From Arcobacter sp. 31_11_sub10_T18 (GTDB lineage Bacteria; Campylobacterota; Campylobacteria; Campylobacterales; Arcobacteraceae), in NCBI GenBank assembly GCA_002163065.1, contig MAAG01000131.1:1-33220 (forward strand): a DNA stretch of 33,220 nucleotides, in the 5' to 3' direction. A program made the translations under genes and the position numbers. Positions 4,708-10,395 of the stretch are shown here, in pieces; position 1 is the first letter of the stretch, and each line of letters starts with the position of its first letter. Below the pieces are notes generated by a model. It was not told the DNA's origin, made no database searches, and saw only the letters and a list, made by a program, of their open reading frames with translations.

Positions 4708-5058
4708 TTATACGAATGAAATGAATGCCATCATTGTAGCATCACCTCTTCTAATTCTTGTCTTAACAATAGAAGTATATCCACCTTTTCTATCTACATA
4801 CTTTGGTGCGATATCATTAATTATTTTTTTAGTAGCTTCTTTACTTTGTAATGATGCAAATACTATTCTGTGAGTATTTAAATCAGCATTTCTAGATGTT
4901 GTTACTAATTTTTCAATATATCTTTGTAGTTCTTTTGCTTTTGGAACTGTAGTTTCGATCTTTTCTCTTTCAATTAAAGCAATTGCCATATTTTTTAGCA
5001 ATGCTTTTCTATGAGAAGAAGTTCTATTTAACTTTCTATATCCATGCTTATGTCTCAT
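4708..5058 (-). CDS. rplQ: 50S ribosomal protein L17
   Basis: [25 protein letters not shown] typical of L17. Confidence 0.97.
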
Positions 5059-5071
5059 ATTAAACCTTTTA

Positions 5072-6070
5072 TTACGCTTTTAATTGCTCAAGCTTTTTTC
5101 TTAAAGCTGATGCAACATTTTCTGGAAGAGTACTATCAATTGGAAAACCTAATGCTTCTAGTTTATCACTAATTTCATCAAAAGATTTTTTACCAAGATT
5201 TTTAATATTCTTAACTTCCACTTCACTCATAAGTGCTAATTCACCAAGGAATTTTAATCCAGCTCTATCTAAAGAGTTGAAACTTCTAGCACTTAAATTT
5301 AAATCTTCAATTTTTACAACTAAATCTTTTAATTCAACTGTATCATCAGTAGTTTCACTTATAGTTACTTCAGATAAATCAAAAACTTTGTTAAACACAG
5401 ACATTTGACTGTACATAACAGAAACCGCTTCTTTAAATGCATCAATTGGAGAAATTTGTCCATTTGTTTGCACATTAAATACAGCTTTTTCAAAGTTAGG
5501 ATTATCTTCAACTAACATTTTTTCAATATCATAAACTACTTTTTTTACCGGAGTAAAAAATGCATCAATAGGAATATAGTCAGTTCCAACGATATCTCGG
5601 ATATCTTCAGAAGGCATATAACCAATTCCTTTTTGAATGATTACTGAAAAAGTTAAGTTACAATCACTATTAATTGTTGCTAAATGAACATCTGGACTTA
5701 CAATTTCTACTTCAGAATTTACTAAGTCTGCACCTTTAATTTCTTTAGGTCCATCAAATGAATACTCAACTTCAACTTGTTCTTGATCACCGATAATTTT
5801 AAATTTGATATTTTTAAGATTAATTATAAAAATAGCAATATCTTCTAGCATACCTCTTAAAGAGTCAAATTCATGACTCGCACCTTCAATTTTAACAGCG
5901 ATTGGTGCGCAACCAACTGAACTACTTAAAAGAAGTCTTCTTAAAGGATGAGCTAAAGTAATAGCAAATCCACTTTCAAATGGATATGCCGTTATTTTAG
6001 CTTCTGTTTCACTAATCGCTTCAATTTCAACTTCAGTAGGTAAAAATGGTGTATCTGCAAATTTTTTCAT
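5072..6070 (-). CDS. rpoA: DNA-directed RNA polymerase subunit alpha
   Basis: 332 aa; [29 protein letters not shown] and C-terminal alpha-CTD ([22 protein letters not shown]). Confidence 0.97.
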
Positions 6071-6087
6071 ATGCTTTAGTCCTATGC

Positions 6088-6714
6088 TTATTTAGAATAT
6101 AACTCTACGATTAATCTCTCTTCAACAGGGATAACAACTTCTTCTCTAGTTGGAACTCTTGTGAAAATACCAAATACTTTATCTTTTTCAACATCAACCC
6201 ACTCAACAATTCCAGTTTGGCCAGTTAATTCAATAGCTCTAACAATTTGAGGATTTGATTTAGATTTTTCTTTGATTTCAATCTTTTGTCCTGGTTTAAC
6301 AACATAAGAAGGGATATCAACTTTTTTACCATCAACTAAGATGTGACCGTGTGTTGTAATTTGTCTAGCAAATGCTCTAGTTGTAGCAAATCCCATTCTG
6401 TAAACAACATTGTCTAATCTTTGTTCGATTAATGTAATAAGGTTTTCACCTGTATTTCCATCTCTTCTTACTGCTTCTTTAAAGTAAGCTCTAAACTTCT
6501 TTTCAGAAACGCCATAAAGGTACTTAGCTTTTTGCTTTTCTCTTAATTGTAAACCATACTCAGAAATCTTAGTTCTTCGTTGTCCATGTTGTCCTGGAGG
6601 GAATGGTCTTTTTTCTAAAGCACTTTTACCTGCAAGTCTTCTTTCACCTTTAAGGCCAAGATCTGCATCAAGTCTTCTTTCTATTTTTTCTACTGGTCCT
6701 CTATATCTTGCCAT
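6088..6714 (-). CDS. rpsD: 30S ribosomal protein S4
   Basis: [23 protein letters not shown]...; start trimmed from 6795 to ATG at 6714. Confidence 0.97.
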
Positions 6715-6724
6715 ACCTAGCTCC

Positions 6725-7117
6725 TTACACTCTTCTTCGTTTAGGAGGTCTACAACCATTATGTGGTAATGGTGTAACATCCTTAAGCCATGCAACTCTG
6801 ATACCTTCGTATGCTCCTACAGCTTTAACAGCAGTATCTCGTCCAGAACCAGGTCCTTGAATCTTAATACCAACATTTTTAATCCCATGTTCCATTGCTT
6901 TTTTCAAAGCATCTTCAACTGCAGCTTGTGCAGCAAAAGGAGTAGATTTTTTACTACCTTTGAAACCTAAGTTACCAGCACTTGACCATGTAATTGCATT
7001 ACCAGATCTATCAGTGATAGTTACCATTGTGTTGTTGAACGATGCAGCGATATGTACGATACCGTCAGCAATATTTTTCTTAACAACTTTTTTTCTAGTT
7101 ACTTTTCTTTTTGCCAT
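6725..7117 (-). CDS. rpsK: 30S ribosomal protein S11
   Basis: [47 protein letters not shown]-terminal [12 protein letters not shown]. Confidence 0.98.
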
Positions 7118-7126
7118 CAGTTATCC

Positions 7127-7495
7127 TTACTTGCTCGCTGCGCCAACAGTTCTTTTCTTACCTTTTCTAGTTCGAGCATTAGTTTTTGTCTTTTGCCCTC
7201 TACACGGTAAGCCTTTTCTATGTCTTAAACCTCTGTATGAACCTAAGTCCATTAATGATTTGATATCCATAGCTACTTTTTTTCTTAAATCACCTTCAAC
7301 CATATAGTTTTTTTGTAATTCAAGTCTGATTGCTGCTGCATCATCTTCTGTAAGCTCGTGAGCTCTTTTGTTGAAATCAATTCCAACAGCGTTTAAGATT
7401 AATCTAGAGTTATGTAAACCTACACCAAAAATGTATGTTAAAGCATACTCCATTCTCTTTTTATTTGGTAAATCAACACCTGCTATTCTTGCCAT
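7127..7495 (-). CDS. rpsM: 30S ribosomal protein S13
   Basis: [54 protein letters not shown]. Confidence 0.98.
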
Positions 7496-7501
7496 GTTAT
7501 T

Positions 7502-7615
7502 TTATCCTTGTCTTTGTTTGTGTTTTTTAGTTTCGCAGATTACTCTAACGACCCCTCTTCTTTTGACAATTATACATTTGTCACACATTTTCTTAACTGA
7601 AGCTCTAACTTTCAT
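7502..7615 (-). CDS. rpmJ: 50S ribosomal protein L36
   Basis: Not in the supplied ORF track. Manual reverse translation gives [37 protein letters not shown], 37 aa with the Cys/His zinc-ribbon pattern. Confidence 0.95.
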
Positions 7616-7635
7616 CATGCTTTCCTTTGTGTTTA

Positions 7636-7800
7636 TTGCCAAATCTCAACAGGCAAGAACTACGTGAAAAAAGCAAACTAATGCTTTTTTGAAGTTCGCG
7701 CCGACATCATCTATAGCGTACTATAGAAATCGGTGGAATCAAGCTCAAACATACCCAAATCAAGTAGATTTAGTTTGTCCGCTTTTTTCCTGTTCCTACC
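7636..7800 (-). ncRNA. Putative structured 5' leader of rpmJ-rpsM-rpsK-rpsD-rpoA-rplQ with alternative helices
   Basis: Minus-strand hairpins at 7701-7733, 7657-7697 and 7636-7656, plus a competing long-range helix 7666-7681 / 7770-7789. Confidence 0.45.
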
Positions 7801-7971
7801 AACTCTTTATAAAATCACAAAATATTTTATAAAAATTTCTTCAATGGTTGAAAAATGGATTTGGATTATATGAAAATATCGCTTAAATTTACTTTAAAGA
7901 TATCCACGCCCCTTTGCAGTTATAATGAATACAAGGTTAATTTGATATACTAAACAATTAACGGAGAAAAT

Positions 7972-10395
7972 ATGAACAACCAATCAAAAATGATTAATTC
8001 GATTAAAATACTTGGAGCTCATGGGGGAAAAGGTTTTGGCCTTGGAACTACCTGTCTTCAAATCAATCAAACCACTGTAATAGATGCAGGTAATATAATA
8101 AGACCCTTAGCAAGTAACTCCGTAGATATTGATAATATATTCCTTTCTCACTCACATTTAGATCATATAAGTGATATTCCTTTTTTAATTGATGCTTACT
8201 TTGAGGAACGGGAAAAACCTATTAAAATTTTTGCCTTAAAAGAAACCATAGAAAATTTAAATAAGCACATTTTTAATAGCGATGTTTGGCCTGATTTTTA
8301 TGAAATAAACTTAATTAAAAAGAAAGAAAATACCATTCAATTCGTTGAGCTTGAAATTGGAAAAGAAGTTATCTTAGAAGATAATACAAAAATCAAACCT
8401 ATTTTAAATAATCATACAACTTCAAGTTGTGGTTTTGTTATCACAAAAAATGACAATGCTACACTTTTTACATCTGATACTTATAAATGTGACTCTATTT
8501 GGGAAGAAGTTAATAATAACAAATCTATTCAATCAGTCATTGTAGATGTTTCTTTTCCTTCCAAATTTGATGAATTGGCATTGTTAAGTAAACATTTAAC
8601 GCCACAGCTTTTAAAAGAAGAATTAACATTACTAAACCGTGATGATGTAAGAGTATATATCAATCATGTCAAACCTGCGTACAAAGATGAAATAGTAAAA
8701 GAAATTGATACTTTTAATTTATTGATAAATGAAGGAAAAATTCTAGAAGATAATGATGTAATATCTTTATCCAATGAATACCAAGCCTATACTAAAAAAA
8801 CAGCCTTTACACAACAAAAAGAAATAGATGATCTTGTTGAAATAGGAAGTTCTTTAACAAGTGAGAAGAACTTTGACGTTTTAATGGAAAAAATCATGTT
8901 AGGTGCAAAACACTTCACTGATGCAGATGGAGGAACTTTATATCTTTTAACTGAAGATGAAAAACAATTAAAATTCACTGTGGTACAAACTGACTCATTG
9001 GAAATTAAAATGGGTGGAACACAAGGTGAAATTACTTGGCCTGCATTAAACTTGCACAACGAAGATGGCAGTCCCAATAACGAAATGGTTGCTGCTGTTT
9101 GTGCTTTAGAAGGGAAACTAATTAATATTCCCGATGTTTATGAAGCAGAAGGTTTTAATTTTGAAGGTACCAAAAAGTTTGATGAAAGTACAGGTTATCG
9201 AACTAAATCAATGTTAGTCATTCCCATGAAAGATCATGAGAATGATGTTATTGGAGTGCTTCAATTATTAAACAAACAAGACAATTTTGGAAATACCATT
9301 TCTTTTACTCAAGAAGATAAAAAACTAATTCAGTCTATGTCGTCTCAAGCAGCAGTTGCCATTACCAACAATAGACTAATAGCTGGACTTGAAAACTTAT
9401 TGGATGCGTTTATTAAATCAATTGCAACTGCTATTGGAGAGAAGTCACTGTATACTGGTGGACATATCAATAGAGTCGCTGAAGTTGCAGGAATGATAGT
9501 CAAAGCTATCAATGCAGACAAAGATGTATATAATGATATCCATTATAGTGAAGATGAATTAACCATGTTAAGTAGAGCTGCTTGGTTACATGATATTGGG
9601 AAAATTGTAATTCCCGAATATGTTGTGGATAAAGCAACCAAACTTGAAACTATTTATGATCGAATTAATACGGTTAAAACTAAATTTGAATTGGTTATGA
9701 GAGATTTAGAAATTGAATATCTAAAAGCTTTAGTATCAGCCAAAGATGATAATGAAAAACAAGCCCTACTTCAAAACTACGAAAAACAAAAAGCAAGTTT
9801 TGATGATGATCTCCAATTCATTATTACATGTAATACTGGTGGCGAGTTTATGGAAGATGAAAAAGTTGCTCGAATAGAAGAAATTGCAAAAAAAGAATTA
9901 CTCATTAATAATGAAACAGTAAATTTACTCTCACCAAATGAAGTATATAACTTATGTATTAGAAAAGGTACATTAACTCAAGAAGAAAGACTGGTCATAA
10001 ACAATCATGTTACTGTTTCTTATAATATGTTAAATGCCTTGCCATTTCCTAAAAAACTCAAAAGACTTCCCGTGGTCGCTGCATCTCACCACAAAAAAGT
10101 AAAAGGTGGCGGTTATGGTGCCCCTGAGATCATGGACCTTCCTATGACCTTAGAAGATAAGATTTTAGCAGTTGCTGATGTATTTGAAGCCTTGACAGCC
10201 AATGATCGTCCTTATAAAAAAGCAAACTCTTTAAATACTTCTTTAAGAATTTTGTCCTTTATGGTAAAAGACGGAGACTTGGATAAAGACTTGGTTAAAT
10301 TTTTCGTTGATCAAGAACTACACTTAGAGTATGCAGATAAACATTTATCTGAAGAACAAAAAGATGAGATAACAGTTGATTTTAACAATCTATAA
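7972..10395 (+). CDS. Signalling protein: N-terminal metallo-beta-lactamase fold (class II cyclic-nucleotide phosphodiesterase-like), GAF domain, C-terminal HD-GYP domain
   Basis: 807 aa; SHSHLDHISDIPF (MBL HxHxDH), GAF-like central part (TDADGGTLYLLTEDEKQLKF...SMLVIPMKDHENDVIGVLQLLNKQ), HD-GYP (TGGHINRV, WLHDIGK, NNHVTVSYNML, SHHKKVKGGGYG, AVADVFEALTANDRPYKKA). Confidence 0.88.
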   Translation: MNNQSKMINSIKILGAHGGKGFGLGTTCLQINQTTVIDAGNIIRPLASNSVDIDNIFLSHSHLDHISDIPFLIDAYFEEREKPIKIFALKETIENLNKHIFNSDVWPDFYEINLIKKKENTIQFVELEIGKEVILEDNTKIKPILNNHTTSSCGFVITKNDNATLFTSDTYKCDSIWEEVNNNKSIQSVIVDVSFPSKFDELALLSKHLTPQLLKEELTLLNRDDVRVYINHVKPAYKDEIVKEIDTFNLLINEGKILEDNDVISLSNEYQAYTKKTAFTQQKEIDDLVEIGSSLTSEKNFDVLMEKIMLGAKHFTDADGGTLYLLTEDEKQLKFTVVQTDSLEIKMGGTQGEITWPALNLHNEDGSPNNEMVAAVCALEGKLINIPDVYEAEGFNFEGTKKFDESTGYRTKSMLVIPMKDHENDVIGVLQLLNKQDNFGNTISFTQEDKKLIQSMSSQAAVAITNNRLIAGLENLLDAFIKSIATAIGEKSLYTGGHINRVAEVAGMIVKAINADKDVYNDIHYSEDELTMLSRAAWLHDIGKIVIPEYVVDKATKLETIYDRINTVKTKFELVMRDLEIEYLKALVSAKDDNEKQALLQNYEKQKASFDDDLQFIITCNTGGEFMEDEKVARIEEIAKKELLINNETVNLLSPNEVYNLCIRKGTLTQEERLVINNHVTVSYNMLNALPFPKKLKRLPVVAASHHKKVKGGGYGAPEIMDLPMTLEDKILAVADVFEALTANDRPYKKANSLNTSLRILSFMVKDGDLDKDLVKFFVDQELHLEYADKHLSEEQKDEITVDFNNL

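Follow-up and report, generated by a model that had tools for sequence, protein, structure and literature searches.

A conserved three-way-junction leader RNA upstream of rpmJ, a candidate autoregulator of an alpha-type ribosomal-protein operon

Beyond a few lineages, little is known about the control of the rpmJ-rpsM-rpsK-rpsD-rpoA-rplQ operon, which also encodes the alpha subunit of RNA polymerase, and for Bacilli a review calls the regulation of the alpha-type operon unsolved (PMC10931766). The window analysed here, a 33,220-nt stretch of DNA from an Arcobacter genome, carries this operon on its minus strand, and an initial annotation had described the leader of rpmJ as a set of mutually exclusive helices, a candidate attenuator or autoregulatory RNA. 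The question is what RNA this leader forms and how it might act on the genes behind it.

We gathered rpmJ leaders from almost every one of 104 genomes of the window's family, 102 of which had a DNA match. Comparison with these relatives shows the minus-strand leader (about 7863-7619) to have the predicted fold of a three-way junction with helices P1, P2 and P3 (Table 1). The elements follow one order in the family leaders, namely a TATAAT-like sequence, P1, GAAR, P2, GUUGG, P3, CCU, the return strand of P1 and, shortly after, the Shine-Dalgarno sequence. The 247-nt leader has a folding energy of -67.0 kcal/mol (z = -4.57), which none of 200 shuffles equalled. Pairing was assessed in alignment A1, which was made with MAFFT, is not structure-fitted and holds 41 sequences, two of them from other families, with the apex of P3 removed. 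In A1, 87.2% of the cells of P1, P2 and P3 are paired, compared with 77.6% after shuffling and 47-59% with the partners slid, and two-sided changes occur in 22 of the 29 pairs (115 cells). The covariation score is 0.325 against 0.162 for shuffled data, with 0 of 500 shuffles as good, these controls, like those used below, leaving the kinship among the sequences in place. Taken by helix, two-sided changes were found in 7 of the 8 P1 pairs tested, in 8 of the 12 pairs of P2 (97% of cells paired) and in 7 of the 9 pairs at the base of P3; outside the family but within the order, P2 shows them in 10 of 11 pairs (alignment A2, see below). P3 is the variable arm, ranging from 9 to 177 nt among the family leaders.

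Table 1. Features of the operon and its leader in window coordinates
Feature	Position	Strand	Remarks
rpmJ (L36)	7502..7618	-	first gene of the operon
rpsM	7495-7127	-	second gene; encodes S13
rpsK	7117-6725	-	third gene
rpsD	6714-6088	-	fourth gene
rpoA	6070-5072	-	fifth gene
rplQ	5058-4708	-	last gene; operon downstream of rpmJ spans 4708..7495
Operon-end terminator hairpin	4688-4656	-	from consensus terminator scan
rpmJ Shine-Dalgarno AAAGGAAAG	7620..7628	-	from sequence
Promoter -10-like candidate TATAATCC	7863..7870	-	TATAAT-like, directly 5' of P1, kept in relatives
P1 5' strand CCATTTTTCAAC	7847..7858	-	covaries with 7639-7650
P1 3' strand GTTGAGATTTGG	7639..7650	-	covaries with P1 5' strand
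GAAR beside P2	7836..7839	-	GAAA in the window, GAAG in most relatives (A1, A2)
P2 hairpin	7804..7835	-	7835-7824 with 7815-7804; apical loop 7823-7816
Pseudoknot 5' strand UUUGUG	7816..7821	-	in P2 loop
Pseudoknot 3' strand CACAAA	7626..7631	-	overlaps 5' end of Shine-Dalgarno; swap test and compensatory changes in other families
P3 base, 5' strand GGTAGGAAC	7792..7800	-	covariation (A1)
P3 base, 3' strand GTTCTTGCC	7652..7660	-	covariation (A1)
S, outer P3 5' arm GAAAAAAG-cgga-CAAACTAA	7770..7789	-	long-range partner of T3; S:T3 covaries in 27 long-P3 leaders
T5, 5' arm of terminator-like hairpin AAAAAAGCA	7682..7690	-	covaries with T3; resembles S
T3, shared 3' arm TTAGTTTGCTTTTTTC	7666..7681	-	pairs with T5 or S; includes a six-T run
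Extended terminator-like hairpin	7657..7697	-	adds GAACT 7697-7693 / AGTTC 7661-7657; pairing probability about 0.62-0.74
Independent hairpin CCGA...TCGG	7701..7733	-	inside long P3; present in relatives of the same type with a different loop sequence

The helices listed in the initial annotation are real, but they form only a sub-part of this larger RNA, which reaches to about 7863 and includes P1, P2, P3 and a pseudoknot that had been missed. The local hairpin AAAAAAGCA/TGCTTTTTT (7667-7675/7682-7690), extended by GAACT/AGTTC (7657-7661/7693-7697), the long-range helix to 7770-7777 and 7782-7789, and the inner hairpin at 7701-7733 all lie where they had been placed, and the first two are kept and covary in relatives. 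A further hairpin, TTGCC/GGCAA at 7636-7656, was rejected: its letters are present, but the pairing is not conserved and its bases belong to the covarying 3' arm of P3 and the 3' end of P1. The annotation had also named two findings that would tell against it, namely that neither helix is conserved or covaries in relatives, and that transcription starts downstream of 7666. Since both alternatives covary and the conserved TATAATCC (7870-7863) precedes the whole structure, neither is seen, as far as sequence tells.

Transcription probably starts a few bases after TATAATCC, at the 5' edge of P1. The gene 5' of the rpmJ leader is divergent and no other gene lies upstream on the minus strand within the window, so that a terminator in the leader could end no other minus-strand gene of the window. 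In the window (7619-7971), rpmJ opens its transcription unit opposite this divergent gene; infA precedes the leader in several other families, and the lineage of the Arcobacter genome seems to have undergone a split of the gene cluster. The divergent gene is an 807-aa frame (7972-10395) with, judged by eye, a metallo-beta-lactamase-like N-terminus, a sensor-like middle and an HD-GYP-like C-terminus, a combination of domains that looks unusual.

An Rfam search, which the initial annotation had proposed, matched no family: no match reached the gathering score for the window leader or for 12 loci, and three matches of the window leader at E values of 6.8-8.9 were treated as chance. The Alpha_RBS model in particular gave no match to the window leader at the gathering score or at E values up to 10, and none at the gathering score among the 12 loci. 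The leader had no match in a plasmid collection; for an rRNA locus from the window's family (L210), the best match in such a collection is Aliarcobacter, which agrees with the placement in Arcobacteraceae made by the initial annotation. It was not found in the literature searched either; it could be among the regions in the supplement, outside our search, of a screen of Arcobacter sp. L intergenic regions, which gave no names to its narrow motifs (PMC6429828). The leader has what marks a ribosomal leader, a conserved 5' UTR structure at ribosomal-protein genes with covariation-backed pairs.

Comparison also shows a predicted pairing of the P2 loop with bases that abut or immediately precede the rpmJ Shine-Dalgarno sequence; it occurs in roughly half of the family's leaders and, in a different sequence, in other families as well. 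In the window's family, both halves of this pseudoknot occur with at least 6 bp in 48 of 102 leaders, and 33 of the 102 have CACAA without the GUG loop. Outside the window's family, CCACU is frequent in the P2 loop and AGUGG before the rpmJ Shine-Dalgarno, and several variants preserve the pairing, including CCGCU/AGCGG (L156), GCACU/AGUGC (L173, L197), UGGCACU/AGUGCCA (L196), UGCACCG/CGGUGCA (L172) and UUUACAC/GUGUAAA (L174). When the halves were swapped among 17 families, the own pairing scored 13.1 against 10.1 for swapped pairings (sd 0.55; 0/5000). Alignment A2 comprises 22 leaders from the order's other families. Of its cells in P2, P3 and the pseudoknot, 94.1% are paired, compared with 73.9% after shuffling, and covariation scores 0.515, compared with 0.162 for shuffled data (0 of 500 shuffles); the outer pseudoknot pair is CG in 13 leaders, GC in 4 and AU in 1. 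As a separate observation, g11 and others in the window's family keep CACAA before the Shine-Dalgarno while the GUG loop partner is gone, and in such leaders CACAA may have another role.

The leader is conserved as a predicted structure in much of the bacterial order. Using the covariance model R1 together with rpmJ-anchored searches, we found it directly 5' of rpmJ in other families too, in several of which infA precedes it. As a rule there was one match per genome, and the strong matches that were compared with rpmJ coordinates lay directly upstream of rpmJ. The second model, R2, built from the 22 non-family leaders, was run on a sample of 299 genomes from the phylum and matched 152, and all of the matches listed were in the same order; in G025, a genome of the window's family, R1 and R2 matched identical bases. 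Some families have little or no such leader upstream of rpmJ, e.g. L184 (f13) and L187 and L188 (f14). Extra R1 matches were treated as chance; one lies inside an ABC-type ATPase frame (G024:C11, L151), one lies away from rpmJ (G027:C1, L152), and those in G206, G146 and G045 lie on contigs other than that of rpmJ. In L197, L198, L177 and L183, inserts made of GAAGGTAGAAGG-like or ATAACGG-like repeats separate the leader region from rpmJ.

We read the element as a ribosomal-protein autoregulatory leader in which the pseudoknot would control translation and, in some genera, P3 would add an attenuator-like switch, with S13 as the likeliest ligand, and assign this reading a probability of about 0.7. 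In the mechanism we propose, an excess of a ribosomal protein of the operon would bind the junction, and the bound protein would stabilise the pseudoknot of the P2 loop. The pseudoknot would block or trap 30S initiation on rpmJ, and translational coupling would carry the repression down the operon.

As for the ligand, S13 stands first, at somewhat less than even odds, because of a likeness between 16S helix 42 (UUGG-stem-NNNNACUC-stem-CC) and P3 as found in other families. In those families P3 is typically a hairpin with UU before it, a GG start, a loop whose last bases are (A)YUC, and a closing CC. An h42-type descriptor, written after the likeness had been noticed, ranked 16S h42 first or joint first among the hairpins of every one of nine rRNA loci, with a perfect score in 3 of the 9 and in 0 of 200 shuffled rRNA pairs; on this descriptor, 10 leaders of the order scored at least 9.5, compared with none of about 420 shuffled ones. 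R2 had no significant match to rRNA (best E value 0.7, none at h42), and the window's own family has not retained the ACUC loop. Helices h41-h43 of 16S rRNA contact uS13 and uS19 directly, and when the late head proteins are missing, parts of 16S rRNA that include 1307-1309 and 1330-1339 are disordered (PMC13246957). Of the S13/S19 pair, the operon encodes S13 only, in its second gene. By our own numbering the segments 1307-1309 and 1330-1339 presumably hold UUG and UGAAG, from which we infer a resemblance to UUGG and GAAG of the leader. The literature searched yielded no S13 leader. A bolder version, which we hold only tentatively and think rather doubtful, is an order-wide autoregulatory RNA that would sense S13 by means of a copy of 16S helix 42 and the bases flanking it, with the parts rearranged (UUGG, ACUC loop, GAAG), and would close the Shine-Dalgarno pseudoknot; in the lineage of this genome, duplication of the 5' strand of that arm would have made it a second, co-transcriptional switch as well.

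The same translational mechanism could be driven by S4, as in the alpha operons of E. coli and other lineages, which we consider possible but unlikely. S4 leaders are known or predicted before the alpha-type operon or rpsD in Gammaproteobacteria, Firmicutes, Clostridia, Fusobacteriales, Bacteroidia and Flavobacteria, where S4 is the known or presumed ligand despite differing structures (PMC7247131), and the S4 site of E. coli is likewise a pseudoknot at the ribosome-binding site (PMC10931766). In most leaders of the window's family, AUAAAG or GUAAAG follows P2, reminiscent of the GUAA of Firmicutes. In the S4 leaders of Firmicutes, GUAA mimics rRNA. However, neither Alpha_RBS nor any other Rfam family was matched, the other families of the order lack GUAA after P2, and their P3 resembles h42, which is outside the S4 site. 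A likeness to h16/h17/h18, the S4 site, was tried and rejected; it consists of GAAG and GUAAAG fragments only, which are not carried through other families. That the ligand is another protein, or that there is none, is likewise a minority chance.

Returning to the preferred autoregulatory leader, the mutual exclusion seen by the initial annotation is supported, but the alternatives are not core architecture; they elaborate P3 in part of the family, and in many relatives the three-way junction has a short P3 that lacks the terminator-like hairpin. The 16-bp S:T3 helix with its 4-nt bulge is the longest in the window leader, and 0 of 200 dinucleotide shuffles reached such a length. Its inner 8 bp, past the bulge, are peculiar to the window genome, and relatives retain an outer arm of the GAAAAAAGC type that has no bulge. 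In most of 27 long-P3 leaders, T3 is able to pair with either S or T5. Over these leaders the own T5:T3 score is 19.3 compared with 15.6 for swapped partners, and the own S:T3 score 23.8 compared with 19.1, and the T3 cores change jointly with both partners, among them GCAAA types (many leaders), GUGA (L008) and ACAAA (L070, L071). L010 keeps T5:T3 with a weak S. Judged by this comparison both helices are real, and they appear to be under selection. Mutually exclusive helices that share a strand and are both evolutionarily maintained, one mark of an attenuator, were found only in the long-P3 genera.

Since the 3' arm of P3 pairs with either the 5' arm of P3 or its near-duplicate, P3 folding and the terminator-like hairpin compete, though the T5:T3 core hairpin can coexist with the base of P3 in the full-length RNA. 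Across leaders, the two folds mostly differ by no more than a few kcal/mol; in the window their energies are -63.8 (S:T3) and -67.0 kcal/mol (T5:T3), and -46.0 and -50.1 kcal/mol, respectively, for the nascent RNA. The terminator-like hairpin has a predicted energy of -7.4 kcal/mol in the window and up to -9.9 kcal/mol in relatives; the window's hairpin has few G-C pairs, and the consensus scan, which picks out the operon-end terminator, did not flag it. In the window genome and several genera, the competition would probably add transcription attenuation, in either direction. The competing P3 arm could act before the ribosome arrives, and formation of T5:T3 would end transcription if the hairpin terminates and would otherwise free the message from the repressed fold. 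Two side observations concern this region. In L006 an insert in the terminator-like hairpin makes a second, tandem A/T-flanked hairpin (AAAAAAGTTAGTGCAATGCACTCTTTTGAGAAAGCAAATTTGCTTTTTT). Long-P3 leaders of several genera (window 7748-7695) have a common motif, GCTTGGCTCCGCCGATTTT...AAAATCGGGGCGAACTAC, with conserved unpaired bases before T5, which is possibly a further recognition element.

Another explanation is that the terminator-like hairpin is a by-product of P3 growth through duplication of its 5' arm and that the junction and pseudoknot regulate alone. The resemblance of T5 to S would fit this, as would L076, which keeps S:T3 and has lost T5, and L011, L024 and L074, whose long P3 arms have no T run; T5 tracks T3, however, through several sequences across genera (L008, L070, L009, L046), which is unexpected for a passive duplicate, and we doubt this explanation. 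That the leader is mainly a transcription attenuator, with the P3/terminator helices as the functional switch and the rest as scaffold, is improbable: the triple co-variation, near-equal energies and six-T run agree with it, and with no other upstream gene on the minus strand in the window a terminator would act on this operon alone, but the junction is kept without the hairpin, and with a short or different P3, in many genera of the family and in the other families examined, which makes attenuation unlikely as the ancestral function, the window hairpin is weak, and no conserved leader peptide was seen. The small frames, e.g. one starting at GTATGTTTGAG, differ among relatives as judged by eye.

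The autoregulatory leader proposed here can be set beside several known systems. The E. coli Alpha_RBS, which responds to S4, forms a pseudoknot around the start of rpsM, with the ribosome-binding site inside it, whereas the present RNA is a three-way junction in the rpmJ 5' UTR without a match to that model, and its pseudoknot abuts the Shine-Dalgarno of rpmJ, in another structural setting and at another gene. The S4 leaders of Clostridia and Fusobacteriales are likewise conserved structured RNAs, located before rpsM-rpsK-rpsD-rpoA-rplQ and predicted to be autoregulators (Eckert and Weinberg 2020, PMC7247131); they belong to different lineages, and that paper has no leader for this order in its table and no rpmJ in its text. 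With terminator/antiterminator attenuators the long-P3 leaders share two exclusive helices with one strand in common and a hairpin ending in a T run; unlike in those, the competing arm pairs with the 3' strand of the terminator hairpin rather than the 5' strand, and the element is nested in one arm of a junction that exists also without it. Leaders that mimic rRNA (S15, L20, S8) carry an element like the rRNA site of the protein; the mimicry proposed here is of 16S helix 42, the S13/S19 site, and is unsupported at the covariance-model level.

The leader is a concrete, testable candidate for an autoregulatory RNA in an order of bacteria. Should S13 prove to be its ligand, the leader would extend the list of known ligands by one for which the literature searched showed no leader, and the nested switch would show transcription-level control growing inside an existing translation-level regulator. 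Ribosomal leaders are a known kind of element; relative to Rfam and the literature searched, the structure of this leader is new, and its nested switch and possible S13 ligand set it apart.
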